Shown here: piece by piece, positions 462-37,909 of the stretch | How the letters are laid out: each line of letters begins with the position of its first letter | Numbering within the stretch: position 1 is the first letter of the stretch | Source: Ascidia mentula | Taxonomy: Eukaryota > Chordata > Ascidiacea > Phlebobranchia > Ascidiidae | Assembly (NCBI GenBank): GCA_947561715.1 | Contig: OX387203.1 | Location: 13,640,001-13,704,000, forward strand | Length of the DNA stretch: 64,000 nt | Direction: 5' to 3' | Program-made: the position numbers and the translations under genes | Notes under the pieces: generated by a model | Databases searched by the model: none | What the model saw: only the letters and a program-made list of their open reading frames with translations | What the model was told of the DNA's origin: nothing

Positions 462-471
462 TACTATTTTA

Positions 472-497
472 TTCGGGGCACATCCTGTCCCCACGAA
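472..497 (-). promoter_or_regulatory. Conserved 3'-terminal stem-loop of element A
   Basis: The sense RNA can pair UUCG plus GGG with CCC plus CGAA across a loop of about 11 nt. GAATAAAATAG follows immediately and then the target. Element B has the same outer UUCG/CGAA arms with a different inner stem, so structure rather than sequence is kept. By analogy with other LINEs this is the likely site where the RT binds its template RNA. The AATAAA could also act as a polyadenylation signal. Confidence 0.6.
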
Positions 498-622
498 TAT
501 CACATCAAAGTTGAACAAGGTAAAAGGAGAACGCAACGAATAAAGGAATGGGTTTGACAATACACAGCGAAAAAAAAAAAAGAAAACGCAAAACACATAA
601 AAATAATCGCATGGGGAGCTAT

Positions 623-990
623 TGACCCCTAGTGGTTGGCTTAGTGTAGTGTAACTGACCACGTGTTGGCGCAGCTCAATGGCGGGCGAAGGCAATAGAC
701 ACGAATGGCAACAGAAAGGAAAAGGAGCGTATCGGACTGTGTACCGACCCCTAGTGTTTAGTCTGGCGTGGTGTTACTGACCACGTGTATGCGCAACTTA
801 ATGACGAGCGACAAGGGTGAACACGGATAATAACGCAAAAGGGAAAAAAAGGGCAACGGGAATCTGTATCGACCCCTAGTGCTTAGTTTGTGATGTGGCT
901 TAAGACCACTCGCGGCGTAATTAACTGACGAGCGTGTAATAACGAGTGCGAGTACAAAAATGAAGGCACAATGGCGCACGCTTACCAAAG
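623..990 (-). repeat. Three imperfect tandem repeats in element A 3' UTR
   Basis: Copies start near 623, 745 and 870 on the plus strand, with periods of 122 and 125 bp. Each opens with GACCCCTAGTG and continues with related blocks such as CTGACCACGTGT and GACGAGCG. The right edge is approximate. The array lies between ORF2 and the 3' stem-loop and is absent from element B, whose 3' UTR is half as long. Confidence 0.75.
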
Positions 991-1119
991 TAGGTGGCGT
1001 CATCTAGTGGTAATTTTCTGGATATTTTCTAGTCCACGAGTGGGCGATAATGTACGAAGGGAAAAGACGCTAAATCGCGAGGCCAAGTTTAAAAATTTAT
1101 GTTCCGCGAGTGGGCGCTT

Positions 1120-4100
1120 TTATGGGGTGTCGGTATGCGTGATGTTGAGCGTGTTTACGACATCGGCCAGGATTTCCTCGAGAAAGGGGTTGTCCCTATT
1201 TCGCTGGACAGCAAGTCTTAAGCGAAAGGAGGATTTGCATGATGTTACTAAGTGGCGGGGTATGTCGTTGATGGGGCGTGTGTCGTGTTTAATTCTGTTG
1301 CGTGTTTTCCAGATAGTGTGTGTTAGTGCGGTGTTTAACAGTGCTCCTAATGTTTTTGTGTAGGGTGTTGTATTGTGAAGTTGTGGAAATGTGATGTGTA
1401 AAGGGGTGTCGAAAGGACAGGTGTTTAGGTCAGATAAAGTTCGAAAGATGCCGCGAATTAAGGTGAGCAGAGGTTGAATAGAAGGACAGTTGTGGAATAG
1501 GTGAGTAAAAGTTTCAAAGGGGAATTTGCACAGGTAGCAGTGGGGTTGTTGATCCAAAGGAAGGTAAGATTTTTGACAGTTTAACGGAAGAATTTTATGT
1601 GTTAGCCGAAAATTAAAGGTTTTGAGATAGTTTGGAAAGATTGGGTGGTGAATTTGGTGCCAGTCGTTAAAGGGATGTGGTGTGTTGGTTTCGTCGATGA
1701 TCCGGAGATAGAGGGGTTTGAGTTTTTTGGTCATGAGCTCAGTTTCGGTGAGTTTGAAAGATTTGAGAAGATTGAGAATATGAAGATAGTGCGGAGAAGG
1801 TGTTGAAGCGTGTGGAAGAAAGTTTCTAGAACGAAGGTCAAAAAGTTTGCTAAGGGGAAGTCCAATGTTGTATTCTATAAAGGAAAGTTGTGGAGAGGTT
1901 GGGGATTCCAAAAGGCGGTGATTGTAATATTGCTTTATAGGAGAGAGAAGTGATAGGTCAGCGTAGAGGGGAATGTTTGCCGCGCCGTAACCGCCATGGT
2001 CACGACGGGCTGCCAGGATGTTGATTGGCAATGTTGGGTTGTGTGGGCCGACGACGAACTTTACCACAATGCCGTCGATCCGTTCTCGTTGCTGGGGAGA
2101 TAAAGGGTAAGTTTTACCAAGGTAAGAAATTTGGGGCAAAAGTAAAGTTTTTGAGAGGATGCATTTAGAATCAAAGGTAAGAAACGGGTTGCTGATAGAT
2201 TTGGCGCGGGATTGCAAAGAGGTAATTGTTTTGTGCCATGTCGCGGTAATGTCTGATGGTGCGCCTATCGGGGTGTTTAACGGAGTTATCGATTTAGGGT
2301 TCCACTTTATGTTACACAAGGTCGGGTCGTCCATGGGAGGTCGAAGGATGGCAATCGCTTCGGTTTTGGTGGGGTTTAGTTTTAATCCAGAAAATTTACC
2401 AAAATAATCAATGAGGCCGAGGGCTTTGGTGAGGGAGTGCCGATGCGCCACCACCAGGGTGACGTCATCAGCGTAAGCGATTGCCTTGGGTGTGTTGCGG
2501 CATGGCACTGGGGTTGAGTCGATAGAGGAATTATTTTGAAGGGCAACGAGGAGCGGATCTAGGGCAATCAGGAAGAGGTTCAGACTAAGGGGGTCACCTT
2601 GTCTGACTCCTCTCCTGATGGGAAAGTCCCTTGTGGCAAATCCGTTTATGAAGGCCCGGGAGTTGGCGCTAGAGTGAAGTGCAGAAAGGTAATTAGTAAA
2701 GCAAGTGGGAAAGCGTTTAAGAGTTAACTGGAGGAGTAGCCAAGAAAATGAAACAGAATCGAAGGCTTTTTGAAAATCGAGGGAAATGAAGTAAGTGTCC
2801 GAATTGATGGAGGAAGCGTGATGGTGGAGATCGCGTAGGAGAGAAGTTGCGTCGGTGGTGGAAGAGCCGGGGGTAGCGAATTGGTTTGAAGAAAGAATTT
2901 CGGGTATGAAGGGTTTGAGTCTGAGATTTAGAAGTTTGTGAAGAATTTTAAGGTCCGTATTTAGAAGAGAGATTGGCCGGTAATTAGTTAGAAGAGTGGG
3001 GTCATTTTTTTTGAAGATAAGGGTAAGATGTCCAAGGTTGTATTCTGAAGGGGTGTAGGAATTGAAATAGGAGAAGTTAAGAGCTTGGGTGAGGTCGGCC
3101 CCGATGAGGTCCCAGTACAGCGAGTAAAACTCGCTGCTGAGACCGTCGGGACCGGGGGTTTTGCCGGAAGGAAAGAGGGAAAGAGTTTTTCTAATTTCGT
3201 GTTGCGTGATGGGATTTGATAAGGTTTCAGTGTGTTGGTCCGGAATTAATTTAAGGGGAATTTTAGAAAATAAATTAGAGGGGTCAGGTATTGGAAGGTT
3301 TTGATTAGAGTATAGAGTTTCGAAGAATTGCCGAGTGTGAGAAAGAAGTTCCTTGGGGGTAGAGAGAGGGAGGCCGTGGTCGTCTTGTAGTTCGAAGATG
3401 GGATTGTGAATTCGTGATGGTAGTAATTCGGAGTAGAGTAATTTATCGGTAATGTTTTTAAAATGGGAGTCGGAGGAAAGAGATTTTAGAATAGAGTCAC
3501 GGGATTTAGAAAGGTAGAGAGAATTTAGGGATTTTTTAATAGATTGAAAGGAGCGAAAGTTTTCAGAAGAGGGATTGTCGTTGAGAATTTGGCGGGCGGT
3601 GTCGAGTTGTTGATGTAGGGTGTAGGTTTCTTCTCGGGATTGTTTAGCCAAACGTTTCGAATGTGTTTTTATCAGGGATTGAAATTTAAATTTAAGTGTC
3701 AGCCAGAAATCCATGGGGTTAGAGTGTAAAGGAGCGAGAGTTTGCCAAAGAGGATAGAAGCGATGAAAGTCGAGACGGAAAAGAGGGTCGTTGAGAGTTT
3801 TCGTATTATTTTTCCATGTGCCACGGCCTCTGGGTGGAGAAGAGATAAGGTTAAGAAAGACCGAAACTGAGTCATGGTCCGAAAAGGGGCAAGGAGTAAA
3901 TAGATGATTGTTGGGAGATAATGAAGAGGAAAGGTAAATGCGGTCTATTCTAGACTGAGAGTTTGGGGCGCGGCGGGAAAATTGACGGAGATTTGGGTTT
4001 AAAAGCCGAAAGGAATCCTGTAAATTGAAAGTGGTTAGTAATTTTATGAGGTTATAGCTGGGTTGTCGATTGGGTAGTGATGGGTGTCTGTCTAAGGTAG

Positions 4101-4578
4101 GGTCGGTTACGCAATTAAAATCACCAGTAAAAACAATTGGGTGGGTAGAAGAGATATAGGGGTAGAGAGAGTCGAAGAATTTGTTGTTGAATATGTAATT
4201 TTTTGTGCCGGAGGGTGCGTATATATTAACTAAGTGAAAGGTATGGGTCAGGGTTGATATATCGGCCGCAATAATGCGACCGTCAGAGTCAGAAGTTGAA
4301 TTAAGAATTCGGAGGCTGGAGGAGTTTAGAAGAACTGCGACACCCCCGTAGGCAGAGCCTTTTAGAGGTGCCGAGTTTAAGAGGATGGGGCCGTGGGTCC
4401 ATTCGGACTTCCACAGGGATTCGGTATGGGGGGTAGAGTGAGTTTCTTGGAGACAAAAAAGGTCAAATTTCAAAGAGGAAAGGTACCGAAATAGGGCTCT
4501 TCTCTTGGAGGCTTGACCGATGCCGTTGACGTTCAGTGTACATATGGACAGATAACTTGTCGGCTCCATCATATACAT
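1120..4578 (-). CDS. LINE A ORF2: APE endonuclease and reverse transcriptase
   Basis: The product is a 1152-aa retrotransposition enzyme that would nick target DNA and copy the element RNA onto it. The N-terminal APE-type endonuclease (about residues 10-245) keeps LNVNG (15), QETH (44), IYAPSG (119), GDFNC (152), RIDR (210) and SDHD (233). The reverse transcriptase (about 470-750) has GKTPGPDG, NYRPISLLNTD, LDFQKAFD (600), GVRQGDPLS and the catalytic YADD (702-705). A C-terminal C-x2-C-x8-H-x4-C finger lies near 1014-1031. I chose the ATG at 4578; two more in-frame ATGs follow within 10 codons, and upstream only a TTG extends the frame. It starts 83 nt after ORF1 stops. No stop or frameshift is seen. 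QETH and the RT block fit L1/Tx1 rather than R1, R2, Jockey or CR1. Confidence 0.95.
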   Translation of the reverse strand: MYMMEPTSYLSICTLNVNGIGQASKRRALFRYLSSLKFDLFCLQETHSTPHTESLWKSEWTHGPILLNSAPLKGSAYGGVAVLLNSSSLRILNSTSDSDGRIIAADISTLTHTFHLVNIYAPSGTKNYIFNNKFFDSLYPYISSTHPIVFTGDFNCVTDPTLDRHPSLPNRQPSYNLIKLLTTFNLQDSFRLLNPNLRQFSRRAPNSQSRIDRIYLSSSLSPNNHLFTPCPFSDHDSVSVFLNLISSPPRGRGTWKNNTKTLNDPLFRLDFHRFYPLWQTLAPLHSNPMDFWLTLKFKFQSLIKTHSKRLAKQSREETYTLHQQLDTARQILNDNPSSENFRSFQSIKKSLNSLYLSKSRDSILKSLSSDSHFKNITDKLLYSELLPSRIHNPIFELQDDHGLPLSTPKELLSHTRQFFETLYSNQNLPIPDPSNLFSKIPLKLIPDQHTETLSNPITQHEIRKTLSLFPSGKTPGPDGLSSEFYSLYWDLIGADLTQALNFSYFNSYTPSEYNLGHLTLIFKKNDPTLLTNYRPISLLNTDLKILHKLLNLRLKPFIPEILSSNQFATPGSSTTDATSLLRDLHHHASSINSDTYFISLDFQKAFDSVSFSWLLLQLTLKRFPTCFTNYLSALHSSANSRAFINGFATRDFPIRRGVRQGDPLSLNLFLIALDPLLVALQNNSSIDSTPVPCRNTPKAIAYADDVTLVVAHRHSLTKALGLIDYFGKFSGLKLNPTKTEAIAILRPPMDDPTLCNIKWNPKSITPLNTPIGAPSDITATWHKTITSLQSRAKSISNPFLTFDSKCILSKTLLLPQISYLGKTYPLSPQQRERIDGIVVKFVVGPHNPTLPINILAARRDHGGYGAANIPLYADLSLLSPIKQYYNHRLLESPTSPQLSFIEYNIGLPLSKLFDLRSRNFLPHASTPSPHYLHILNLLKSFKLTETELMTKKLKPLYLRIIDETNTPHPFNDWHQIHHPIFPNYLKTFNFRLTHKILPLNCQKSYLPLDQQPHCYLCKFPFETFTHLFHNCPSIQPLLTLIRGIFRTLSDLNTCPFDTPLHITFPQLHNTTPYTKTLGALLNTALTHTIWKTRNRIKHDTRPINDIPRHLVTSCKSSFRLRLAVQRNRDNPFLEEILADVVNTLNITHTDTP

Positions 4579-4661
4579 AAAAAACAAAACATTGTGTTAA
4601 AGCAAATACAAAAAGTAAACGACCAAAAAAAAATTTTGTTGCGTATCAATATGTGCGGTTT

Positions 4662-6389
4662 TTACAGTGTCGATGCATTAAAATCAGTGGGCAGCACGGT
4701 TCCGCATGAGCACCGTGCCACCTCTCCATGTTTAAGGTCGCGGAGAGATCCGCAGCTGCACGCAATTAATAGCCTGCGGCATGTTTTGTTGGTACAACGC
4801 GATGGGTTATAATAGTTTTTATCTGGAGCCCAGTTTCCGCAAGTACATTTGACATGGATGTCACCACAGAGGCATGTCATATTATTATACTTATTGTTTA
4901 GGGCGGAGCGGCAACATTTTGTACGCATTGTTTTCGGTGACGTACCGCTTTTATGGCGTTTTATCACCTGGGTAAAGCCTTCCTCATCGGTTGTCGACGA
5001 TTCCTTTCGATGCTTCGGCGTTGACGTCGCTGACGGGTTGGCGAACAGCTGGGCCAACGAGGAGTGTTGGGTGTGTTCGGGTGACGCAGGTTTGGTTGTG
5101 TTATCCACCGCGCCCTCGTGCGGCTTCTCGTTTGTGTTGGTGTTGTCGCCTGGTGAGACGGTTTGTTGCACGCACGTTGATGTGACGTCAGACGTCAACA
5201 TGGGTATCTCGTCAGCTGTTACTGCGCCCGCGTCAGCTGTTGTTGCTCCCGCGTCGGCTGTTGTTGTTCCCACGTCATCGTCAGCTGTTGTTGCGCCCGC
5301 GTCAGCTGTTGTTGCGCCCGCGTCAGCTGTTGTTGCGCCCGCGTCAGCTGATGTTGTTGCTCCCGCGTCAGCTGATGTGGTTGCGTGGGCGTTATCGCAC
5401 GCCTCTAGCACCGTGCGGGGATCGTTGCATTGCATCTCCTCGCTCGTTGCGGCAACCGACCCAGCGTCGGTTGCTTCTGGAGTCTTGCGGTGTTCGCCGC
5501 GCTGGTTCTTATCAGTAGTTGTAACAACCGACCCAGCGTCGGTTGCTTCTGCAGTCTTGCGGTGTTCGCCGCACTGCTCTTTATCACTCGTTGTAGCACC
5601 TGACACAACGTCGGGTGCTTCTGACGTCTTGCGGAGTTCACCGCACTGCTCTTTATTGGCTGTTGTAGCCATCGACCCAGCGTCGGTGGCTTCTGACGTC
5701 TTCTCTATCTCTACGCTTTGCGCCTTATCGGCCTTGCTTCTCGCTGCTTCGCGTTTCGCAGCTGCAGCTGCTTGCTTTTCGGAAATTTCTTTGCGAAAGC
5801 TTGGGCAGTCAACCTTGACATGTCCCATTTCGTGACAAAAATCACAACGTTTTGGCTGCCCTGGATAGTCAACCTCAATTTGATTGTTCGATAGGCGCAA
5901 GCGCTCTGGTATCGGATTCAATTTCAGTACCGACGCCTTCATATACATAACACGTCGGCCTCCATAAACGTTATAATCATCGAACATCTTCCACCCTCTG
6001 TAGACAGGGGCGTACTTTTTAAAGTAATCCATTAGGGCTGGCATTTTTATGGTTGGTGGAACTTTGTTTAGAAAAACCCTTATTTCATCGTCGCAGCGAG
6101 CTGTAGCGAACACTGCTTTTTGGCTGTTTCGTAATGCGGCAGCCAAGTTGCGCGCCTTTTCCATTGTTGGTGTAAAGAATTTAACCCGTCCATTGGGGTA
6201 ATTAAACAGCCCAGTTAGAGATAGTCGAACACTGACTTTCTCCTTCTTCAGAAGCGCATAAATTTCGGCGCGTTTGAGCCCGGGGTTAAAGCGAGCGTCA
6301 ACTTCTAGGTTTTCGTCCGTCTTGAACGGATCTTCTGGCACAGATTGGGCCGGCACACTTGGCCCAGCTACAACACTGGCATAGCTCAT
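4662..6389 (-). CDS. LINE A ORF1: nucleic-acid-binding protein with CCHC knuckle and Cys-rich C terminus
   Basis: The product is a 575-aa ORF1 protein, expected to coat element RNA in a ribonucleoprotein particle. Residues 25-175 form a mixed alpha/beta region that may hold one or two RRM-like folds (inference). A single zinc knuckle, C-x2-C-x4-H-x4-C, is at 182-195. An Ala/Lys-rich segment follows, then four 24-aa repeats containing KTxEA, then a run of short TTADAGA repeats. The C-terminal 84 residues (492-575) hold 12 cysteines in a pattern shared with element B. The ATG at 6389 (MSYASVV) is chosen because it aligns with the element B start; upstream codons are open but include only non-ATG starts until 6446. 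The protein is intact. Confidence 0.92.
   Translation of the reverse strand: MSYASVVAGPSVPAQSVPEDPFKTDENLEVDARFNPGLKRAEIYALLKKEKVSVRLSLTGLFNYPNGRVKFFTPTMEKARNLAAALRNSQKAVFATARCDDEIRVFLNKVPPTIKMPALMDYFKKYAPVYRGWKMFDDYNVYGGRRVMYMKASVLKLNPIPERLRLSNNQIEVDYPGQPKRCDFCHEMGHVKVDCPSFRKEISEKQAAAAAKREAARSKADKAQSVEIEKTSEATDAGSMATTANKEQCGELRKTSEAPDVVSGATTSDKEQCGEHRKTAEATDAGSVVTTTDKNQRGEHRKTPEATDAGSVAATSEEMQCNDPRTVLEACDNAHATTSADAGATTSADAGATTADAGATTADAGATTADDDVGTTTADAGATTADAGAVTADEIPMLTSDVTSTCVQQTVSPGDNTNTNEKPHEGAVDNTTKPASPEHTQHSSLAQLFANPSATSTPKHRKESSTTDEEGFTQVIKRHKSGTSPKTMRTKCCRSALNNKYNNMTCLCGDIHVKCTCGNWAPDKNYYNPSRCTNKTCRRLLIACSCGSLRDLKHGEVARCSCGTVLPTDFNASTL
5212..5704 (-). repeat. In-frame coding repeats in ORF1 of element A
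   Basis: Two repeat types lie side by side. Plus-strand 5414-5704 holds four 72-bp copies, each encoding 24 residues beginning KTxEA. Plus-strand 5212-5391 holds 18-21-bp copies encoding TTADAGA-like heptads, about eight in all. All lengths are multiples of three, so copy-number change would not break the frame. The region is GC-rich compared with the rest of the element. Confidence 0.85.
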
Positions 6390-6651
6390 TCTGGCACAAA
6401 ATTGTGTGTTCACAAAACAGACACACACTGGTCGCTGGCAGATCACCTCTCCTACCTAAGGCAGCAGCCCTGAAAAGGGCCGGGCTAACTAACACAGCGA
6501 CCGCAAGCCTCCTCAAGAATATCATAAACAAACAGGCAAATTGAGACTGAAAGCGGTTCCAAATAAATGTAAAGACTTCCAAAACTCTCCTCACGCAATT
6601 TGATTATTATGAAAAATGGCTAGGCTTGTAAATCAATAGAGTAACTCAAGT
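6390..6651 (-). promoter_or_regulatory. Element A 5' UTR with conserved hairpin block
   Basis: This is a non-coding leader of 262 bp. A block shared with element B lies near 6425-6490: a hairpin with GCCCT/AGGGC arms (6467-6480), then a conserved TAGGAGAGGTGA and CTGCCAG on the sense strand. The remaining leader, next to the SL junction, shows no similarity to element B that I can see. I see no TATA box. Transcription could come from the SL promoter just upstream. Confidence 0.55.
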
Positions 6652-6676
6652 GTGATGCTTACTTTTCAAATAGAAT
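6652..6676 (-). pseudogene. 5' remnant of SL-alpha gene split by element A, altered at donor
   Basis: This piece holds the SL start (6676) to about nucleotide 27. Relative to the intact SL genes it lacks 2 nt at the leader/donor boundary: the leader reads ATTCTATTTGAAAA before GTAAGC. Sequence upstream of 6676 is unchanged from the array consensus. The element 5' end follows directly. Confidence 0.8.
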
Positions 6677-6702
6677 GTCGACTGGAGGGAATGGGGCGGA
6701 GG

Positions 6703-6729: not shown

Positions 6730-7063
6730 GGGACATCGCAAGCGCGTGGAATGGCAATTTCCAACACTGAGTGCCGCCGTATTTGCCACATTTGCATCGA
6801 CAAGGAGAGCATCCTAGCCTCTGGACAGCAATAGGGCATGGTGAGCAAGCATGCTCTGTGACGTCACAATTTCTATTGTGACAGAGGTCTACACGGTGGG
6901 CATTTCCCACCTCCGGTACTTATTCTCATAGAAATAAAATCATGCGCGCCCAAGTACAAAAGCAGCCTGGCCGCTGTACAGTAATTTGGCATAATGAGCA
7001 CGAGCCGGCGTCGTCGACGCGGCAACGACGGCGGGGGGCCTTAACAAACGATTACGTAGTTAA

Positions 7064-7109
7064 AAAGTAGCCCGGACAGGACGTGATGCTTACCTTATTC
7101 AAATAGAAT
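7064..7109 (-). ncRNA. SL RNA gene, beta type (representative)
   Basis: The leader is at 7094-7109 and the donor GTAAGC directly follows. The intron part reads CACGTCCTGTCC then GGGC, giving a 4-bp stem with one G-U pair. CTACTTTTTAAC follows as an Sm-like site. The downstream 3'-box position reads GTTTGTTAAGG, a weaker match than in alpha. The upstream region is A-type. Confidence 0.85.
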
Positions 7110-7319
7110 GTCGACTGGTGGCAGAGGGTCGGAGCTTGGCCTGGTGGGCACTTGGAGTGGTTGCGACATGGCAAGCACGTGGAATGGCGATTTTCAACAC
7201 TGAGAGTGCAGCGGTAATCACCACGCTTGCAACGACAGAAAAGTATGCCTGCCGCTGGACAGTAATTGGGCATAATGAGCACGAGCCGTCGTCGTCGACG
7301 CGGCAACGACGGCGGGGGG

Positions 7320-7330
7320 CCTTTGCAAAC
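7320..7330 (-). terminator. snRNA-type 3' box downstream of SL-alpha (representative)
   Basis: The minus strand reads GTTTGCAAAGG about 14 nt past the presumed RNA end. It resembles the metazoan snRNA 3' box (GTTT, 0-3 nt, AAA, purine), which directs 3' end formation of Pol II snRNAs. The motif recurs after every alpha gene. Confidence 0.5.
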
Positions 7331-7344
7331 GATTAAGTAGTTAA

Positions 7345-7390
7345 AAAGTAGCCCGGACAGGGCGTGATGCTTACCTTATTCAAATAGAAT
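7345..7390 (-). ncRNA. SL RNA gene, alpha type (representative)
   Basis: The leader is at 7375-7390, then GTAAGCATCAC, then a stem GCCC-TGTCC-GGGC (SL nt 28-40), then CTACTTTTTAAC as Sm-like site. This is the gene type used as target by elements A and B, which replace the 5' arm and loop of the stem. The 3' end is set by the 46-nt size recalled for Ciona SL RNA, so it may be off by a few nt. Confidence 0.87.
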
Positions 7391-7416
7391 GTCGACTGGA
7401 GGGAATGGGGCGGAGG

Positions 7417-7443
7417 TTGGCCTGGTGGGCACTTGGAGTGGTT
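7417..7443 (-). promoter_or_regulatory. PSE-like conserved block of SL promoter (representative)
   Basis: This lies at -27 to -53 from the alpha start at 7390. These 27 nt are identical in the beta upstream region (7136-7162), while the adjacent -8 to -26 segment differs at several positions. Such a pattern fits a factor-binding site like the PSE bound by SNAPc. No TATA box is seen at -25 to -30. Confidence 0.5.
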
Positions 7444-7567
7444 GGGACATCGCAAGCGCGTGGAATGGCAATTTCCAACACTGAGTGCCGCCGTATTTGC
7501 CACATTTGCATCGACAAGGAGAGCATCCTAGCCTCTGGACAGCAATAGGGCATGGTGAGCAAGCATG

Positions 7568-7600
7568 CTCTGTGACGTCACAATTTCTATTGTGACAGAG
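7568..7600. promoter_or_regulatory. Bulged 12-bp inverted repeat containing palindromic TGACGTCA (representative)
   Basis: CTCTGT and CACAAT, separated by GACGT, pair with ATTGTGACAGAG across a 4-nt loop. The bulge creates the perfect CREB/ATF-type palindrome TGACGTCA. An 8-bp palindrome, AGCATGCT, abuts it. It lies about 180-210 bp upstream of each SL-alpha start, only in B subunits, where a distal enhancer of an snRNA-type gene would sit. Function is inferred. Confidence 0.4.
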
Positions 7601-10600
7601 GTCTACACGGTGGGCATTTCCCACCTCCGGTACTTATTCTCATAGAAATAAAATCATGCGCGCCCAAGTACAAAAGCAGCCTGGCCGCTGTACAGTAATT
7701 TGGCATAATGAGCACGAGCCGGCGTCGTCGACGCGGCAACGACGGCGGGGGGCCTTAACAAACGATTACGTAGTTAAAAAGTAGCCCGGACAGGACGTGA
7801 TGCTTACCTTATTCAAATAGAATGTCGACTGGTGGCAGAGGGTCGGAGCTTGGCCTGGTGGGCACTTGGAGTGGTTGCGACATGGCAAGCACGTGGAATG
7901 GCGATTTTCAACACTGAGAGTGCAGCGGTAATCACCACGCTTGCAACGACAGAAAAGTATGCCTGCCGCTGGACAGTAATTGGGCATAATGAGCACGAGC
8001 CGTCGTCGTCGACGCGGCAACGACGGCGGGGGGCCTTTGCAAACGATTAAGTAGTTAAAAAGTAGCCCGGACAGGGCGTGATGCTTACCTTATTCAAATA
8101 GAATGTCGACTGGAGGGAATGGGGCGGAGGTTGGCCTGGTGGGCACTTGGAGTGGTTGGGACATCGCAAGCGCGTGGAATGGCAATTTCCAACACTGAGT
8201 GCCGCCGTATTTGCCACATTTGCATCGACAAGGAGAGCATCCTAGCCTCTGGACAGCAATAGGGCATGGTGAGCAAGCATGCTCTGTGACGTCACAATTT
8301 CTATTGTGACAGAGGTCTACACGGTGGGCATTTCCCACCTCCGGTACTTATTCTCATAGAAATAAAATCATGCGCGCCCAAGTACAAAAGCAGCCTGGCC
8401 GCTGTACAGTAATTTGGCATAATGAGCACGAGCCGGCGTCGTCGACGCGGCAACGACGGCGGGGGGCCTTAACAAACGATTACGTAGTTAAAAAGTAGCC
8501 CGGACAGGACGTGATGCTTACCTTATTCAAATAGAATGTCGACTGGTGGCAGAGGGTCGGAGCTTGGCCTGGTGGGCACTTGGAGTGGTTGCGACATGGC
8601 AAGCACGTGGAATGGCGATTTTCAACACTGAGAGTGCAGCGGTAATCACCACGCTTGCAACGACAGAAAAGTATGCCTGCCGCTGGACAGTAATTGGGCA
8701 TAATGAGCACGAGCCGTCGTCGTCGACGCGGCAACGACGGCGGGGGGCCTTTGCAAACGATTAAGTAGTTAAAAAGTAGCCCGGACAGGGCGTGATGCTT
8801 ACCTTATTCAAATAGAATGTCGACTGGAGGGAATGGGGCGGAGGTTGGCCTGGTGGGCACTTGGAGTGGTTGGGACATCGCAAGCGCGTGGAATGGCAAT
8901 TTCCAACACTGAGTGCCGCCGTATTTGCCACATTTGCATCGACAAGGAGAGCATCCTAGCCTCTGGACAGCAATAGGGCATGGTGAGCAAGCATGCTCTG
9001 TGACGTCACAATTTCTATTGTGACAGAGGTCTACACGGTGGGCATTTCCCACCTCCGGTACTTATTCTCATAGAAATAAAATCATGCGCGCCCAAGTACA
9101 AAAGCAGCCTGGCCGCTGTACAGTAATTTGGCATAATGAGCACGAGCCGGCGTCGTCGACGCGGCAACGACGGCGGGGGGCCTTAACAAACGATTACGTA
9201 GTTAAAAAGTAGCCCGGACAGGACGTGATGCTTACCTTATTCAAATAGAATGTCGACTGGTGGCAGAGGGTCGGAGCTTGGCCTGGTGGGCACTTGGAGT
9301 GGTTGCGACATGGCAAGCACGTGGAATGGCGATTTTCAACACTGAGAGTGCAGCGGTAATCACCACGCTTGCAACGACAGAAAAGTATGCCTGCCGCTGG
9401 ACAGTAATTGGGCATAATGAGCACGAGCCGTCGTCGTCGACGCGGCAACGACGGCGGGGGGCCTTTGCAAACGATTAAGTAGTTAAAAAGTAGCCCGGAC
9501 AGGGCGTGATGCTTACCTTATTCAAATAGAATGTCGACTGGAGGGAATGGGGCGGAGGTTGGCCTGGTGGGCACTTGGAGTGGTTGGGACATCGCAAGCG
9601 CGTGGAATGGCAATTTCCAACACTGAGTGCCGCCGTATTTGCCACATTTGCATCGACAAGGAGAGCATCCTAGCCTCTGGACAGCAATAGGGCATGGTGA
9701 GCAAGCATGCTCTGTGACGTCACAATTTCTATTGTGACAGAGGTCTACACGGTGGGCATTTCCCACCTCCGGTACTTATTCTCATAGAAATAAAATCATG
9801 CGCGCCCAAGTACAAAAGCAGCCTGGCCGCTGTACAGTAATTTGGCATAATGAGCACGAGCCGGCGTCGTCGACGCGGCAACGACGGCGGGGGGCCTTAA
9901 CAAACGATTACGTAGTTAAAAAGTAGCCCGGACAGGACGTGATGCTTACCTTATTCAAATAGAATGTCGACTGGTGGCAGAGGGTCGGAGCTTGGCCTGG
10001 TGGGCACTTGGAGTGGTTGCGACATGGCAAGCACGTGGAATGGCGATTTTCAACACTGAGAGTGCAGCGGTAATCACCACGCTTGCAACGACAGAAAAGT
10101 ATGCCTGCCGCTGGACAGTAATTGGGCATAATGAGCACGAGCCGTCGTCGTCGACGCGGCAACGACGGCGGGGGGCCTTTGCAAACGATTAAGTAGTTAA
10201 AAAGTAGCCCGGACAGGGCGTGATGCTTACCTTATTCAAATAGAATGTCGACTGGAGGGAATGGGGCGGAGGTTGGCCTGGTGGGCACTTGGAGTGGTTG
10301 GGACATCGCAAGCGCGTGGAATGGCAATTTCCAACACTGAGTGCCGCCGTATTTGCCACATTTGCATCGACAAGGAGAGCATCCTAGCCTCTGGACAGCA
10401 ATAGGGCATGGTGAGCAAGCATGCTCTGTGACGTCACAATTTCTATTGTGACAGAGGTCTACACGGTGGGCATTTCCCACCTCCGGTACTTATTCTCATA
10501 GAAATAAAATCATGCGCGCCCAAGTACAAAAGCAGCCTGGCCGCTGTACAGTAATTTGGCATAATGAGCACGAGCCGGCGTCGTCGACGCGGCAACGACG

Positions 10601-13600: not shown

Positions 13601-13801
13601 GCACGTGGAATGGCGATTTTCAACACTGAGAGTGCAGCGGTAATCACCACGCTTGCAACGACAGAAAAGTATGCCTGCCGCTGGACAGTAATTGGGCATA
13701 ATGAGCACGAGCCGTCGTCGTCGACGCGGCAACGACGGCGGGGGGCCTTTGCAAACGATTAAGTAGTTAAAAAGTAGCCCGGACAGGGCGTGATGCTTAC
13801 C

Positions 13802-14796: not shown

Positions 14797-15454
14797 TTAT
14801 TCAAATAGAATGTCGACTGGAGGGAATGGGGCGGAGGTTGGCCTGGTGGGCACTTGGAGTGGTTGGGACATCGCAAGCGCGTGGAATGGCAATTTCCAAC
14901 ACTGAGTGCCGCCGTATTTGCCACATTTGCATCGACAAGGAGAGCATCCTAGCCTCTGGACAGCAATAGGGCATGGTGAGCAAGCATGCTCTGTGACGTC
15001 ACAATTTCTATTGTGACAGAGGTCTACACGGTGGGCATTTCCCACCTCCGGTACTTATTCTCATAGAAATAAAATCATGCGCGCCCAAGTACAAAAGCAG
15101 CCTGGCCGCTGTACAGTAATTTGGCATAATGAGCACGAGCCGGCGTCGTCGACGCGGCAACGACGGCGGGGGGCCTTAACAAACGATTACGTAGTTAAAA
15201 AGTAGCCCGGACAGGACGTGATGCTTACCTTATTCAAATAGAATGTCGACTGGTGGCAGAGGGTCGGAGCTTGGCCTGGTGGGCACTTGGAGTGGTTGCG
15301 ACATGGCAAGCACGTGGAATGGCGATTTTCAACACTGAGAGTGCAGCGGTAATCACCACGCTTGCAACGACAGAAAAGTATGCCTGCCGCTGGACAGTAA
15401 TTGGGCATAATGAGCACGAGCCGTCGTCGTCGACGCGGCAACGACGGCGGGGGG

Positions 15455-19289: not shown

Positions 19290-19324
19290 AATACACAAAT
19301 ACACAAAAGGGGGGGGTGGTTTAT

Positions 19325-30600: not shown

Positions 30601-31471
30601 GACAGAAAAGTATGCCTGCCGCTGGACAGTAATTGGGCATAATGAGCACGAGCCGGCGTCGTCGACGCGGCAACGACGGCGGGGGGCCTTTGCAAACGAT
30701 TAAGTAGTTAAAAAGTAGCCCGGACAGGGCGTGATGCTTACCTTATTCAAATAGAATGTCGACTGGTGGCAGAAGGTCGGAGCTTGGCCTGGTGGGCACT
30801 TGGAGTGGTTGCGACATGGCAAGCACGTGGAATGGCAATTTTCAACACTGAGAGTGCAGCGGTAATCACCACGCTTGCAACGACAGAAAAGTATGCCTGC
30901 CGCTGGACAGTAATTGGGCATAATGAGCACGAGCCGTCGTCGTCGACGCGGCAACGACGGCGGGGGGCCTTTGCAAACGATTAAGTAGTTAAAAAGTAGC
31001 CCGGACAGGGCGTGATGCTTACCTTATTCAAATAGAATGTCGACTGGAGGGAATGGGGCGGAGGTTGGCCTGGTGGGCACTTGGAGTGGTTGGGACATCG
31101 CAAGCGCGTGGAATGGCAATTTCCAACACTGAGTGCCGCCGTATTTGCCACATTTGCATCGACAAGGAGAGCATCCTAGCCTCTGGACAGCAATAGGGCA
31201 TGGTGAGCAAGCATGCTCTGTGACGTCACAATTTCTATTGTGACAGAGGTCTACACGGTGGGCATTTCCCACCTCCGGTACTTATTCTCATAGAAATAAA
31301 ATCATGCGCGCCCAAGTACAAAAGCAGCCTGGCCGCTGTACAGTAATTTGGCATAATGAGCACGAGCCGGCGTCGTCGACGCGGCAACGACGGCGGGGGG
31401 CCTTAACAAACGATTACGTAGTTAAAAAGTAGCCCGGACAGGACGTGATGCTTACCTTATTCAAATAGAAT
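21605..31471 (-). ncRNA. 30 intact SL RNA genes, array 3
   Basis: Alpha 5' ends: 21931, 22926, 23921, 24635, 25630, 26344, 27339, 28334, 29048, 30043, 31038. Beta: 21650, 22364, 23359, 24354, 25068, 26063, 26777, 27772, 28767, 29481, 30476, 31471. Gamma: 22645, 23640, 25349, 27058, 28053, 29762, 30757. Leader and donor look identical in all of them. Confidence 0.85.
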
Positions 31472-31681
31472 GTCGACTGGTGGCAGAGGGTCGGAGCTTG
31501 GCCTGGTGGGCACTTGGAGTGGTTGCGACATGGCAAGCACGTGGAATGGCGATTTTCAACACTGAGAGTGCAGCGGTAATCACCACGCTTGCAACGACAG
31601 AAAAGTATGCCTGCCGCTGGACAGTAATTGGGCATAATGAGCACGAGCCGTCGTCGTCGACGCGGCAACGACGGCGGGGGG

Positions 31682-31719
31682 CCTTTGCAAACGATTAAGT
31701 AGTTAAAAAGTAGCCCGGA
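31682..31719 (-). pseudogene. 3' remnant of SL-alpha gene split by element A-prime
   Basis: It has the same junction as at 424-461: SL nucleotides from about 34 onward, Sm-like site and 3'-box-like motif, then the element 3' end. Confidence 0.8.
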
Positions 31720-31729
31720 TACTATTTTA

Positions 31730-31755
31730 TTCGGGGCACATCCTGTCCCCACGAA
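31730..31755 (-). promoter_or_regulatory. 3'-terminal stem-loop of element A-prime
   Basis: Same UUCG-GGG/CCC-CGAA stem-loop and GAATAAAATAG end as element A. Confidence 0.6.
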
Positions 31756-31880
31756 TATCACATCAAAGTTGAACAAGGTAAAAGGAGAACGCAACGAATA
31801 AAGGAATGGGTTTGACAATACACAGCGAAAAAAAAAAAAGAAAACGCAAAACACATAAAAATAATCGCATGGGGAGCTAT

Positions 31881-32248
31881 TGACCCCTAGTGGTTGGCTT
31901 AGTGTAGTGTAACTGACCACGTGTTGGCGCAGCTCAATGGCGGGCGAAGGCAATAGACACGAATGGCAACAGAAAGGAAAAGGAGCGTATCGGACTGTGT
32001 ACCGACCCCTAGTGTTTAGTCTGGCGTGGTGTTACTGACCACGTGTATGCGCAACTTAATGACGAGCGACAAGGGTGAACACGGATAATAACGCAAAAGG
32101 GAAAAAAAGGGCAACGGGAATCTGTATCGACCCCTAGTGCTTAGTTTGTGATGTGGCTTAAGACCACTCGCGGCGTAATTAACTGACGAGCGTGTAATAA
32201 CGAGTGCGAGTACAAAAATGAAGGCACAATGGCGCACGCTTACCAAAG
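31881..32248 (-). repeat. Three tandem repeats in element A-prime 3' UTR
   Basis: Copies begin near 31881, 32003 and 32128, matching those of element A. Confidence 0.75.
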
Positions 32249-32377
32249 TAGGTGGCGTCATCTAGTGGTAATTTTCTGGATATTTTCTAGTCCACGAGTG
32301 GGCGATAATGTACGAAGGGAAAAGACGCTAAATCGCGAGGCCAAGTTTAAAAATTTATGTTCCGCGAGTGGGCGCTT

Positions 32378-35300
32378 TTATGGGGTGTCGGTATGCGTGA
32401 TGTTGAGCGTGTTTACGACATCGGCCAGGATTTCCTCGAGAAAGGGGTTGTCCCTATTTCGCTGGACAGCAAGTCTTAAGCGAAAGGAGGATTTGCATGA
32501 TGTTACTAAGTGGCGGGGTATGTCGTTGATGGGGCGTGTGTCGTGTTTAATTCTGTTGCGTGTTTTCCAGATAGTGTGTGTTAGTGCGGTGTTTAACAGT
32601 GCTCCTAATGTTTTTGTGTAGGGTGTTGTATTGTGAAGTTGTGGAAATGTGATGTGTAAAGGGGTGTCGAAAGGACAGGTGTTTAGGTCAGATAAAGTTC
32701 GAAAGATGCCGCGAATTAAGGTGAGCAGAGGTTGAATAGAAGGACAGTTGTGGAATAGGTGAGTAAAAGTTTCAAAGGGGAATTTGCACAGGTAGCAGTG
32801 GGGTTGTTGATCCAAAGGAAGGTAAGATTTTTGACAGTTTAACGGAAGAATTTTATGTGTTAGCCGAAAATTAAAGGTTTTGAGATAGTTTGGAAAGATT
32901 GGGTGGTGAATTTGGTGCCAGTCGTTAAAGGGATGTGGTGTGTTGGTTTCGTCGATGATCCGGAGATAGAGGGGTTTGAGTTTTTTGGTCATGAGCTCAG
33001 TTTCGGTGAGTTTGAAAGATTTGAGAAGATTGAGAATATGAAGATAGTGCGGAGAAGGTGTTGAAGCGTGTGGAAGAAAGTTTCTAGAACGAAGGTCAAA
33101 AAGTTTGCTAAGGGGAAGTCCAATGTTGTATTCTATAAAGGAAAGTTGTGGAGAGGTTGGGGATTCCAAAAGGCGGTGATTGTAATATTGCTTTATAGGA
33201 GAGAGAAGTGATAGGTCAGCGTAGAGGGGAATGTTTGCCGCGCCGTAACCGCCATGGTCACGACGGGCTGCCAGGATGTTGATTGGCAATGTTGGGTTGT
33301 GTGGGCCGACGACGAACTTTACCACAATGCCGTCGATCCGTTCTCGTTGCTGGGGAGATAAAGGGTAAGTTTTACCAAGGTAAGAAATTTGGGGCAAAAG
33401 TAAAGTTTTTGAGAGGATGCATTTAGAATCAAAGGTAAGAAACGGGTTGCTGATAGATTTGGCGCGGGATTGCAAAGAGGTAATTGTTTTGTGCCATGTC
33501 GCGGTAATGTCTGATGGTGCGCCTATCGGGGTGTTTAACGGAGTTATCGATTTAGGGTTCCACTTTATGTTACACAAGGTCGGGTCGTCCATGGGAGGTC
33601 GAAGGATGGCAATCGCTTCGGTTTTGGTGGGGTTTAGTTTTAATCCAGAAAATTTACCAAAATAATCAATGAGGCCGAGGGCTTTGGTGAGGGAGTGCCG
33701 ATGCGCCACCACCAGGGTGACGTCATCAGCGTAAGCGATTGCCTTGGGTGTGTTGCGGCATGGCACTGGGGTTGAGTCGATAGAGGAATTATTTTGAAGG
33801 GCAACGAGGAGCGGATCTAGGGCAATCAGGAAGAGGTTCAGACTAAGGGGGTCACCTTGTCTGACTCCTCTCCTGATGGGAAAGTCCCTTGTGGCAAATC
33901 CGTTTATGAAGGCCCGGGAGTTGGCGCTAGAGTGAAGTGCAGAAAGGTAATTAGTAAAGCAAGTGGGAAAGCGTTTAAGAGTTAACTGGAGGAGTAGCCA
34001 AGAAAATGAAACAGAATCGAAGGCTTTTTGAAAATCGAGGGAAATGAAGTAAGTGTCCGAATTGATGGAGGAAGCGTGATGGTGGAGATCGCGTAGGAGA
34101 GAAGTTGCGTCGGTGGTGGAAGAGCCGGGGGTAGCGAATTGGTTTGAAGAAAGAATTTCGGGTATGAAGGGTTTGAGTCTGAGATTTAGAAGTTTGTGAA
34201 GAATTTTAAGGTCCGTATTTAGAAGAGAGATTGGCCGGTAATTAGTTAGAAGAGTGGGGTCATTTTTTTTGAAGATAAGGGTAAGATGTCCAAGGTTGTA
34301 TTCTGAAGGGGTGTAGGAATTGAAATAGGAGAAGTTAAGAGCTTGGGTGAGGTCGGCCCCGATGAGGTCCCAGTACAGCGAGTAAAACTCGCTGCTGAGA
34401 CCGTCGGGACCGGGGGTTTTGCCGGAAGGAAAGAGGGAAAGAGTTTTTCTAATTTCGTGTTGCGTGATGGGATTTGATAAGGTTTCAGTGTGTTGGTCCG
34501 GAATTAATTTAAGGGGAATTTTAGAAAATAAATTAGAGGGGTCAGGTATTGGAAGGTTTTGATTAGAGTATAGAGTTTCGAAGAATTGCCGAGTGTGAGA
34601 AAGAAGTTCCTTGGGGGTAGAGAGAGGGAGGCCGTGGTCGTCTTGTAGTTCGAAGATGGGATTGTGAATTCGTGATGGTAGTAATTCGGAGTAGAGTAAT
34701 TTATCGGTAATGTTTTTAAAATGGGAGTCGGAGGAAAGAGATTTTAGAATAGAGTCACGGGATTTAGAAAGGTAGAGAGAATTTAGGGATTTTTTAATAG
34801 ATTGAAAGGAGCGAAAGTTTTCAGAAGAGGGATTGTCGTTGAGAATTTGGCGGGCGGTGTCGAGTTGTTGATGTAGGGTGTAGGTTTCTTCTCGGGATTG
34901 TTTAGCCAAACGTTTCGAATGTGTTTTTATCAGGGATTGAAATTTAAATTTAAGTGTCAGCCAGAAATCCATGGGGTTAGAGTGTAAAGGAGCGAGAGTT
35001 TGCCAAAGAGGATAGAAGCGATGAAAGTCGAGACGGAAAAGAGGGTCGTTGAGAGTTTTCGTATTATTTTTCCATGTGCCACGGCCTCTGGGTGGAGAAG
35101 AGATAAGGTTAAGAAAGACCGAAACTGAGTCATGGTCCGAAAAGGGGCAAGGAGTAAATAGATGATTGTTGGGAGATAATGAAGAGGAAAGGTAAATGCG
35201 GTCTATTCTAGACTGAGAGTTTGGGGCGCGGCGGGAAAATTGACGGAGATTTGGGTTTAAAAGCCGAAAGGAATCCTGTAAATTGAAAGTGGTTAGTAAT

Positions 35301-35836
35301 TTTATGAGGTTATAGCTGGGTTGTCGATTGGGTAGTGATGGGTGTCTGTCTAAGGTAGGGTCGGTTACGCAATTAAAATCACCAGTAAAAACAATTGGGT
35401 GGGTAGAAGAGATATAGGGGTAGAGAGAGTCGAAGAATTTGTTGTTGAATATGTAATTTTTTGTGCCGGAGGGTGCGTATATATTAACTAAGTGAAAGGT
35501 ATGGGTCAGGGTTGATATATCGGCCGCAATAATGCGACCGTCAGAGTCAGAAGTTGAATTAAGAATTCGGAGGCTGGAGGAGTTTAGAAGAACTGCGACA
35601 CCCCCGTAGGCAGAGCCTTTTAGAGGTGCCGAGTTTAAGAGGATGGGGCCGTGGGTCCATTCGGACTTCCACAGGGATTCGGTATGGGGGGTAGAGTGAG
35701 TTTCTTGGAGACAAAAAAGGTCAAATTTCAAAGAGGAAAGGTACCGAAATAGGGCTCTTCTCTTGGAGGCTTGACCGATGCCGTTGACGTTCAGTGTACA
35801 TATGGACAGATAACTTGTCGGCTCCATCATATACAT
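32378..35836 (-). CDS. LINE A-prime ORF2: APE endonuclease and reverse transcriptase
   Basis: The 1152-aa translation is the same as that of element A ORF2, with all endonuclease, RT (YADD) and C-terminal zinc-finger residues present. The ATG at 35836 corresponds to the start chosen there. Identity at silent sites as well as in protein indicates a very recent common origin, or a duplicated stretch of assembly. Confidence 0.95.
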   Translation of the reverse strand: MYMMEPTSYLSICTLNVNGIGQASKRRALFRYLSSLKFDLFCLQETHSTPHTESLWKSEWTHGPILLNSAPLKGSAYGGVAVLLNSSSLRILNSTSDSDGRIIAADISTLTHTFHLVNIYAPSGTKNYIFNNKFFDSLYPYISSTHPIVFTGDFNCVTDPTLDRHPSLPNRQPSYNLIKLLTTFNLQDSFRLLNPNLRQFSRRAPNSQSRIDRIYLSSSLSPNNHLFTPCPFSDHDSVSVFLNLISSPPRGRGTWKNNTKTLNDPLFRLDFHRFYPLWQTLAPLHSNPMDFWLTLKFKFQSLIKTHSKRLAKQSREETYTLHQQLDTARQILNDNPSSENFRSFQSIKKSLNSLYLSKSRDSILKSLSSDSHFKNITDKLLYSELLPSRIHNPIFELQDDHGLPLSTPKELLSHTRQFFETLYSNQNLPIPDPSNLFSKIPLKLIPDQHTETLSNPITQHEIRKTLSLFPSGKTPGPDGLSSEFYSLYWDLIGADLTQALNFSYFNSYTPSEYNLGHLTLIFKKNDPTLLTNYRPISLLNTDLKILHKLLNLRLKPFIPEILSSNQFATPGSSTTDATSLLRDLHHHASSINSDTYFISLDFQKAFDSVSFSWLLLQLTLKRFPTCFTNYLSALHSSANSRAFINGFATRDFPIRRGVRQGDPLSLNLFLIALDPLLVALQNNSSIDSTPVPCRNTPKAIAYADDVTLVVAHRHSLTKALGLIDYFGKFSGLKLNPTKTEAIAILRPPMDDPTLCNIKWNPKSITPLNTPIGAPSDITATWHKTITSLQSRAKSISNPFLTFDSKCILSKTLLLPQISYLGKTYPLSPQQRERIDGIVVKFVVGPHNPTLPINILAARRDHGGYGAANIPLYADLSLLSPIKQYYNHRLLESPTSPQLSFIEYNIGLPLSKLFDLRSRNFLPHASTPSPHYLHILNLLKSFKLTETELMTKKLKPLYLRIIDETNTPHPFNDWHQIHHPIFPNYLKTFNFRLTHKILPLNCQKSYLPLDQQPHCYLCKFPFETFTHLFHNCPSIQPLLTLIRGIFRTLSDLNTCPFDTPLHITFPQLHNTTPYTKTLGALLNTALTHTIWKTRNRIKHDTRPINDIPRHLVTSCKSSFRLRLAVQRNRDNPFLEEILADVVNTLNITHTDTP

Positions 35837-35919
35837 AAAAAACAAAACATTGTGTTAAAGCAAATACAAAAAGTAAACGACCAAAAAAAAATTTTGTTGC
35901 GTATCAATATGTGCGGTTT

Positions 35920-37647
35920 TTACAGTGTCGATGCATTAAAATCAGTGGGCAGCACGGTTCCGCATGAGCACCGTGCCACCTCTCCATGTTTAAGGTCGCG
36001 GAGAGATCCGCAGCTGCACGCAATTAATAGCCTGCGGCATGTTTTGTTGGTACAACGCGATGGGTTATAATAGTTTTTATCTGGAGCCCAGTTTCCGCAA
36101 GTACATTTGACATGGATGTCACCACAGAGGCATGTCATATTATTATACTTATTGTTTAGGGCGGAGCGGCAACATTTTGTACGCATTGTTTTCGGTGACG
36201 TACCGCTTTTATGGCGTTTTATCACCTGGGTAAAGCCTTCCTCATCGGTTGTCGACGATTCCTTTCGATGCTTCGGCGTTGACGTCGCTGACGGGTTGGC
36301 GAACAGCTGGGCCAACGAGGAGTGTTGGGTGTGTTCGGGTGACGCAGGTTTGGTTGTGTTATCCACCGCGCCCTCGTGCGGCTTCTCGTTTGTGTTGGTG
36401 TTGTCGCCTGGTGAGACGGTTTGTTGCACGCACGTTGATGTGACGTCAGACGTCAACATGGGTATCTCGTCAGCTGTTACTGCGCCCGCGTCAGCTGTTG
36501 TTGCTCCCGCGTCGGCTGTTGTTGTTCCCACGTCATCGTCAGCTGTTGTTGCGCCCGCGTCAGCTGTTGTTGCGCCCGCGTCAGCTGTTGTTGCGCCCGC
36601 GTCAGCTGATGTTGTTGCTCCCGCGTCAGCTGATGTGGTTGCGTGGGCGTTATCGCACGCCTCTAGCACCGTGCGGGGATCGTTGCATTGCATCTCCTCG
36701 CTCGTTGCGGCAACCGACCCAGCGTCGGTTGCTTCTGGAGTCTTGCGGTGTTCGCCGCGCTGGTTCTTATCAGTAGTTGTAACAACCGACCCAGCGTCGG
36801 TTGCTTCTGCAGTCTTGCGGTGTTCGCCGCACTGCTCTTTATCACTCGTTGTAGCACCTGACACAACGTCGGGTGCTTCTGACGTCTTGCGGAGTTCACC
36901 GCACTGCTCTTTATTGGCTGTTGTAGCCATCGACCCAGCGTCGGTGGCTTCTGACGTCTTCTCTATCTCTACGCTTTGCGCCTTATCGGCCTTGCTTCTC
37001 GCTGCTTCGCGTTTCGCAGCTGCAGCTGCTTGCTTTTCGGAAATTTCTTTGCGAAAGCTTGGGCAGTCAACCTTGACATGTCCCATTTCGTGACAAAAAT
37101 CACAACGTTTTGGCTGCCCTGGATAGTCAACCTCAATTTGATTGTTCGATAGGCGCAAGCGCTCTGGTATCGGATTCAATTTCAGTACCGACGCCTTCAT
37201 ATACATAACACGTCGGCCTCCATAAACGTTATAATCATCGAACATCTTCCACCCTCTGTAGACAGGGGCGTACTTTTTAAAGTAATCCATTAGGGCTGGC
37301 ATTTTTATGGTTGGTGGAACTTTGTTTAGAAAAACCCTTATTTCATCGTCGCAGCGAGCTGTAGCGAACACTGCTTTTTGGCTGTTTCGTAATGCGGCAG
37401 CCAAGTTGCGCGCCTTTTCCATTGTTGGTGTAAAGAATTTAACCCGTCCATTGGGGTAATTAAACAGCCCAGTTAGAGATAGTCGAACACTGACTTTCTC
37501 CTTCTTCAGAAGCGCATAAATTTCGGCGCGTTTGAGCCCGGGGTTAAAGCGAGCGTCAACTTCTAGGTTTTCGTCCGTCTTGAACGGATCTTCTGGCACA
37601 GATTGGGCCGGCACACTTGGCCCAGCTACAACACTGGCATAGCTCAT
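35920..37647 (-). CDS. LINE A-prime ORF1: CCHC and Cys-rich nucleic-acid-binding protein
   Basis: The 575-aa translation is the same as element A ORF1: zinc knuckle at 182-195, four 24-aa repeats, TTADAGA run, 12-cysteine C terminus. The in-frame repeat copy number is the same as in element A, which is notable because such repeats tend to change quickly. Repeat DNA lies at 36470-36962. Confidence 0.92.
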   Translation of the reverse strand: MSYASVVAGPSVPAQSVPEDPFKTDENLEVDARFNPGLKRAEIYALLKKEKVSVRLSLTGLFNYPNGRVKFFTPTMEKARNLAAALRNSQKAVFATARCDDEIRVFLNKVPPTIKMPALMDYFKKYAPVYRGWKMFDDYNVYGGRRVMYMKASVLKLNPIPERLRLSNNQIEVDYPGQPKRCDFCHEMGHVKVDCPSFRKEISEKQAAAAAKREAARSKADKAQSVEIEKTSEATDAGSMATTANKEQCGELRKTSEAPDVVSGATTSDKEQCGEHRKTAEATDAGSVVTTTDKNQRGEHRKTPEATDAGSVAATSEEMQCNDPRTVLEACDNAHATTSADAGATTSADAGATTADAGATTADAGATTADDDVGTTTADAGATTADAGAVTADEIPMLTSDVTSTCVQQTVSPGDNTNTNEKPHEGAVDNTTKPASPEHTQHSSLAQLFANPSATSTPKHRKESSTTDEEGFTQVIKRHKSGTSPKTMRTKCCRSALNNKYNNMTCLCGDIHVKCTCGNWAPDKNYYNPSRCTNKTCRRLLIACSCGSLRDLKHGEVARCSCGTVLPTDFNASTL

Positions 37648-37909
37648 TCTGGCACAAAATTGTGTGTTCACAAAACAGACACACACTGGTCGCTGGCAGA
37701 TCACCTCTCCTACCTAAGGCAGCAGCCCTGAAAAGGGCCGGGCTAACTAACACAGCGACCGCAAGCCTCCTCAAGAATATCATAAACAAACAGGCAAATT
37801 GAGACTGAAAGCGGTTCCAAATAAATGTAAAGACTTCCAAAACTCTCCTCACGCAATTTGATTATTATGAAAAATGGCTAGGCTTGTAAATCAATAGAGT
37901 AACTCAAGT
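37648..37909 (-). promoter_or_regulatory. Element A-prime 5' UTR with conserved hairpin
   Basis: Hairpin at 37725-37738; the leader matches element A throughout. Confidence 0.55.

Follow-up and report, generated by a model that had tools for sequence, protein, structure and literature searches.

APE-type LINEs of the L1 group in the spliced-leader RNA genes of an ascidian, and the spliced-leader-like head that they carry

Do long interspersed nuclear elements (LINEs) of the L1 group single out spliced-leader (SL) RNA genes, and if so, what do they take from them? The question is raised by a stretch of 64,000 nucleotides (nt) of the ascidian Ascidia mentula (GenBank assembly GCA_947561715.1, contig OX387203.1, positions 13,640,001 to 13,704,000; hereafter the window), a minus-strand tandem array of SL RNA genes interrupted by three LINEs with intact open reading frames, ORF1 and ORF2 (table 1). 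In this study, we find that these elements, which encode an apurinic/apyrimidinic endonuclease (APE), are very probably recently active, target-specific LINEs parasitising SL RNA genes via the SL promoter. All three lie within an SL RNA gene and point the same way as that gene, their 3' junctions falling at SL nt 34-37. The shared site and orientation had been noted in an original prediction from the sequence of the window, and both stand; the independence of the three does not, since E1 and E3 are exact duplicates (0 mismatches). Thus, the window holds two insertion events, in two families, and three independent insertions are ruled out. Within the window alone, the same site and orientation would be a coincidence of about 2%; genome-wide, the pattern is far beyond chance.

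The SL exon ATTCTATTTGAATAAG occurs 128 times in the window and the exon end with its donor, AATAAGGTA, 127 times, in a repeat that is mostly a dimeric unit of 714 bp (281 + 433 bp). The exon is identical to that of Ciona, whose SL RNA measures 46 nt and is encoded by at least 670 genes (PMC7986045; here and below, statements from the literature refer to the accessible parts of the papers cited). The gene comprises the exon, a GT donor, a hairpin (GCCC-TGTCC-GGGC) and, by eye, an Sm-like U-rich site, CTACTTTTTAAC, unlike the Sm-like site of Ciona. Across the assembly (195.8 Mb, 79 contigs) there are 1671 exact SL genes with donor, 1344 with flanks of the type found on contig C71, 233 with flanks of the type of contig C1 and the remainder with others; their places by flank type are those of the first 100 of each among the matches listed. 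The proximal sequence upstream of SL +1 is conserved between the C71 and C1 arrays, which differ at the target, where TGTCC or TGCTT precedes GGGCTAC.

Target preference was assessed with the 14-base motif at the 3' terminus of the elements, CCCGAATAAAATAG, which has 49 exact sites in the assembly, against two for the reversed control. Twenty-nine of these sites lie in SL genes (C71, 20; C1, 9), followed by 4-5 nt and then GGGCTAC, and all 29 occupy the same few nucleotides in sense orientation. The insertion point, at SL nt 34-37, reads GCCCTGTCC/GGGCTACTTTTT in the C71 array and GCCCTGCTT/GGGCTAC in the C1 array. The probability of 29 in 49 by chance is about 1e-111 if sites are independent, and 1.4e-15 if only 4 of 10 events are counted. 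Of 20 whole E2-like copies beyond the window's own, 18 can be assigned to SL genes from the junction at the 3' end, and two are elsewhere; L041 and L042, in different SL arrays, are 0.6% apart. A third, poly(A)-tailed family is represented by one SL copy and one off-target copy. Target-specific insertion into SL genes by an APE-type LINE, as originally proposed, is supported by this single position on two contigs. Exact-motif probes miss diverged copies. Copy numbers are minimum values, since the whole-genome protein searches scored 40 of 948 candidates in one case and 54 of 620 in the other.

The remaining 3' ends fall into two groups. Fifteen, all E1-like, are on C70 (16.90-17.78 Mb) and have one non-SL flank in common, and thus are a single off-target insertion amplified within another repeat; five are single off-target locations. 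At one off-target copy, L052 (C67:13432699), CGGGC directly follows the insertion, as in the SL target CGGGCTAC, and this copy may be an imperfect target match.

The enzymatic equipment agrees with what had been read from the letters. The N-terminal endonuclease motifs QETH, GDFNC and SDHD are present, and PF03372 (APE) is matched in both ORF2 types (E 8.7e-15 and 1.9e-17). Residues N14, E43, Y118, D151, N153, D232 and H233, which we take to be catalytic, are invariant across eight sequences. The only Pfam matches in ORF2 are APE, reverse transcriptase (RT; RVT_1) and zf-RVT, the last over cut-off in E2 and just under it in E1; Pfam may miss a restriction-like endonuclease (RLE). The L1-like character of the RT is borne out by similarity to human L1 ORF2p (E 3.7e-64, alignment covering residues 6-890), against 1.2e-19 for the best chain named as an R2 protein, in a comparison without I, Jockey or RTE references. 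E1 and E2 are 70% identical in ORF2 and 41% in ORF1, and their 3' untranslated regions (UTRs) align poorly, the terminal hairpin ending in CCCGAATAAAATAG excepted. ORF1 gave no Pfam match and its homology searches found nothing; its AlphaFold model (mean pLDDT 50.8) was not used.

What had been overlooked is that the SL sequence 5' of each element is not the target's alone. Probes for the 5' ends found 21 E2-type and 23 E1-type sites (the E1-type probe excluding the SL exon), of which 17 and 15, respectively, are within the two SL arrays, three of the 17 being placed by coordinates only. All 12 off-target 5' ends start at SL +1 (to within 3 bases) and adjoin unrelated DNA, two of them sharing a flank; there is one mismatch in L069, at +3, and position +1 is different in L070 and L075. 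An SL head beside unrelated DNA implies that the head belongs to the element. Made up of the SL exon, an altered splice donor and sequence of the SL intron, it corresponds to SL +1 to about +27. An E2 probe lacking the exon and the GT/GC position recovered 20 sites, all among the 21 E2-type sites, and 20 of 20 have the SL exon with a GC donor. The donor is changed in every head, to G/GC in E2 and A/GT in E1-type heads (the slash marks the exon border), and AAG/GTAAGC is absent from 23 of 23 E1-type heads. Because the head continues into the SL intron, it points to descent from an unspliced SL-gene transcript and not to trans-splicing.

On target, the head stands in register behind host upstream sequence, the insertion being marked by a small deletion and lacking a target-site duplication (TSD); the head is present in 16 of the 18 whole E2-like copies there. 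Off target, a TSD of 19-22 bp borders L030, and one of 9-11 bp borders the C1 copy of the poly(A) family. As a separate matter, L031, L034, L035 and L038 combine E2-like bodies with E1-type heads, and the upstream part of L037 is E1-like ORF2; all five are mosaics between families.

We propose that the element, having no promoter of its own, would be transcribed from the upstream SL promoter, with a start at +1 of the interrupted SL gene. Its RNA would begin with the SL exon, would by virtue of the altered donor avoid being used in trans-splicing, and would then be translated into ORF1p and ORF2p. At the GGGC border of the SL hairpin, ORF2p would make a bottom-strand nick, and target-primed reverse transcription would begin from the 3' hairpin. 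Once a full-length cDNA reached the SL head, the head would pair with the target's own SL sequence, so that the 5' junction would close at +1 in register, with a small deletion and no TSD, and the SL promoter would be regained. Off target, SL homology would be lacking, a TSD could form and the copy would be left without a promoter. TSDs are absent on target and occur at two of four off-target copies, a pattern that agrees with closure of the 5' end by pairing without proving it.

Several observations weigh against this reading. The 49 sites include six off-target events, of which five are single and one is amplified; outside the 49, to which poly(A)-family 3' ends do not belong, come L032 (C1:5.39-Mb, variant 3' motif) and one poly(A)-family copy, and the off-target 5' ends have 11 distinct flanks. 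Copies at unrelated sites, which the original prediction had named as the counter-evidence to look for, thus exist, as a minority. Since array duplication made some of the copies, the 29 sites represent fewer than 29 events. The altered donors retain GTAAGC or GCAAGC and might splice weakly. Two of the 18 on-target copies are without the head, L029 being 5'-truncated and L037 joined to E1-like sequence. Both ends were read for four full-length copies off target, and two of these (C52:9.67 and C69, where both ends were assumed to belong to the same copy) show no TSD, nor does the truncated off-target L032. Finally, the start of transcription, the use of the SL promoter and the loss of trans-splicing are deduced from sequence.

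Might these, then, be ordinary L1-type LINEs without target specificity, found mainly in SL arrays because insertion elsewhere is harmful, a few chance hits there having been multiplied as the arrays duplicated? The exact duplication of E1 as E3, the flank common to the 15 C70 sites and the very existence of off-target copies would agree with such a history; yet retention would not pick one position, in sense orientation, for 29 of 29 SL-array 3' ends, diverged copies occur in two arrays with different flanking sequence, and the chance figure stays minute even on the count of 4 events in 10. We consider it very improbable. Nor do we give any real credence to an origin of the head in which element mRNA received the SL exon by normal trans-splicing before reverse transcription. 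Heads do start at SL +1, and in Ciona at least 58% of expressed genes receive the identical SL by trans-splicing (PMC7986045), but trans-splicing would remove the SL-intron sequence (GTAAGCATCAC or GCAAGCATACG) that follows the exon, and its retention contradicts this origin. A different proposal is that the SL-like head, gained once, acts autonomously as a promoter or initiator, so that SL genes would simply be favoured as targets and their own promoter would not be needed. That off-target copies keep the head, some of them close to on-target ones (L029 and L030 are 0.6% apart), speaks for it; against it, the proximal upstream DNA is conserved between arrays and has, by eye, no likeness to the off-target flanks, and, since the head starts at +1, it is without upstream promoter sequence. 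We regard this proposal as unlikely, and parasitism of SL genes via their own promoter remains our preferred reading.

ORF2 is under purifying selection, with dN/dS of 0.09-0.17 across nine chosen pairs, four of which contained 3-60 gapped bases. A TAA at ORF2 codon 1145 was rejected as a defect, being a few codons before the E2 end and common to 14 of 20 copies; L033 and L045 have a further stop. The conserved 3' hairpin folds better than shuffled sequences in four versions (z -2.3 to -4.3), as does a 5' UTR element of 73-76 nt in three (z -2.7 to -3.6), whose closing stem shows, by eye, two compensatory pairs between E1 and E2. The E1 form of this element holds GGCCCUUUUCAGGGCU, which resembles the histone mRNA 3' stem-loop GGCCCTTTTCAGGGCC found after the H4 gene in L100; the E2 version has diverged.

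Concerning relatives, the closest protein is A0A6F9DMX7 of Phallusia mammillata (63% identity over 99% of ORF2, among 120 listed of 1210). In our main tree (39 of 123 rows; a broader quick tree held 107 of 123, and a third 25 rows and 217 columns) it forms a clade with E1 and E2 (100/100), inside a clade of 14 rows (100/100) with Clavelina and metagenomic proteins. Human L1, which is dispersed and poly(A)-ended, has an ORF2 with APE and RT alike; it falls among the other 25 rows, split from the 14-row clade by a fully supported branch. The trees contained no Tx1, R1, CRE or NeSL references, and no sequence named Tx1 was among the best 120 of the 1210 relatives. By RT and APE type the elements appear to lie on the L1 side, and endonuclease type together with RT similarity would set them apart from CRE and NeSL. 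In viral contigs, a protein-alignment scan gave 105 pattern matches with no relative confirmed, and the SL pattern had 0 matches; a protein scan of genome contigs gave six distant RT loci (22-27%), which come from records with a bacterial label and were not used.

To our knowledge, SL-gene parasites are otherwise known only as RLE-type elements; among APE-type elements, Mutsu and Dewa belong to the Tx1 clade. SL genes have been described as LINE targets for the RLE-type CRE and NeSL (PMC12278014, PMC3636483, PMC7650587). The CRE clade of trypanosomatids (SLACS, CZAR, CRE1/CRE2) occupies one relative position in SL RNA genes (PMC12278014), as do the elements described here (29 of 49 3' ends), which differ by their N-terminal APE, two ORFs, small on-target deletions and element-borne SL head. 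NeSL-1 of nematodes, specific for SL1 genes, shares the SL-gene specificity and the target-site deletions (PMC3636483) and is said to be co-transcribable with SL1 (PMC7650587), experimental data on this not being known to PMC3636483; it differs in its RLE type and R2 group, and no constant SL head is mentioned in the accessible descriptions. APE type and specificity for a multicopy target are combined in Tx1, Keno (U2), Mutsu (5S) and Dewa (tRNA spacer), whose targets differ from SL genes, and APE-type elements specific for other targets are described in the Tx1 and R1 clades (PMC4640811, PMC3747384, PMC3706591). Judged by title and opening of the abstract, none of the matches listed, mostly non-subscription literature, reports an APE-type SL-gene LINE or an SL head. 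In its accessible part, the Ciona genome paper mentions the SL cluster and no retrotransposon there (PMC6836712), and a tunicate review likewise mentions none in the SL cluster (PMC4122922).

A sister LINE family resides in a tandem histone array (C52:12.98-13.05 Mb and C53:32-36 kb; L094-L101, L103-L105). Its RT shares 70.5% identity with the Phallusia protein, 69% with E2 and 67% with E1, and branches as sister to those of families E1 and E2 (94/90, slightly short of the tool's star, on 217 columns). Four of the six 3' ends read enter the first codons of histone H3; of the others, one lies about 30 bp before an H2A start and one runs into the apparent 5' UTR of another copy. Two of 29 exact H3 gene starts are directly behind an insertion. 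Head capture was looked for in this family but not established: the fused sequence occurred once only, and one distant copy gave no match. There is perhaps an even chance that the clade as a whole inserts just downstream of the transcription start in tandem RNA polymerase II arrays, taking the host promoter, that the SL lineage fixed the 5' half of the target RNA as a head with a disabled donor, and that the histone H3/H2A sister behaves likewise. If so, the head would serve at once as capped leader, guard against trans-splicing and homology closing integration in register.

The window has some further features. An SL-like sequence, ATTTTATTTCTATGAGAATAAGTACC, recurs 61-62 times in the 433-bp part of each unit (e.g. 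at 6919) and is possibly a degenerate second SL gene. In the E1 3' UTR (640-1010), a motif with CACTAGGGGTC and GTGGTCAGT is repeated about three times and, by eye, was not seen in the shorter E2 3' UTR. A plus-strand open frame of 325 amino acids (aa) antisense to E1 ORF1 (4858-5835, 36116-37093) is probably a by-product of repetitive ORF1 sequence. Scans of the window found no Rfam family reaching its gathering score and no tRNA.

Table 1. Coordinates of the SL RNA gene array and of the inserted LINEs in the window
Feature	Position	Strand	Basis or remark
SL RNA gene tandem array, dimeric 714-bp unit	6919-15230	-	limits approximate
SL RNA gene tandem array, continuation	21460-31471	-	limits approximate
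SL RNA gene tandem array, up to window end	38177-64000	-	start approximate
Exactly duplicated segment	1-14265 = 31259-45523	.	0 mismatches over 14,265 bp
E1, full-length SL-inserted LINE, family E1, SL-like head included	462-6676	-	junctions, ORFs
E1 ORF2, 1152 aa: APE endonuclease, RT, zf-RVT-like Cys region	1120-4578	-	Pfam, human L1 ORF2p match
E1 ORF1, 575 aa: CCHC knuckle, C-terminal Cys-rich region	4662-6389	-	motifs by eye
E1 SL-like head, SL exon from +1, altered splice donor GAAAA/GTAAGCATCAC	6652-6676	-	
E1 structured 5' UTR element, histone-type stem-loop inside (by eye)	6430-6502	-	z -2.9
E1 3'-terminal hairpin, end CCCGAATAAAATAG	464-504	-	z -4.3
Leftover 3' part of interrupted SL RNA gene downstream of E1, TCCGGGCTACTTTTT	447-461	-	
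E2, full-length SL-inserted LINE, family E2, SL-like head included	15491-21217	-	
E2 ORF2, 1153 aa	15828-19289	-	Pfam, similarity
E2 ORF1, 588 aa; MNYAQ start at 20944 aligns with E1 start	19325-21091	-	
E2 SL-like head ATTCTATTTGAATAAG/GCAAGCATACG	21191-21217	-	
E2 structured 5' UTR element; closing stem, two compensatory pairs versus E1 (by eye)	20990-21065	-	z -3.6
E2 3'-terminal hairpin, folded with one-base variant of other copies	15494-15538	-	z -2.8
E3, identical duplicate of E1	31720-37934	-	0 mismatches

Overall, our findings add an APE-type lineage of the L1 group, apparently a chordate one, to the parasites of SL genes. The altered donors suggest that such a parasite must avoid being used as an SL RNA, and the histone-gene sister suggests that members of the clade can switch targets yet stay close to the transcription start. 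Two questions are made testable, namely how a promoterless site-specific LINE maintains its promoter and how its 5' junction is closed; head-bearing off-target copies, standing beside on-target ones, are natural constructs for both.

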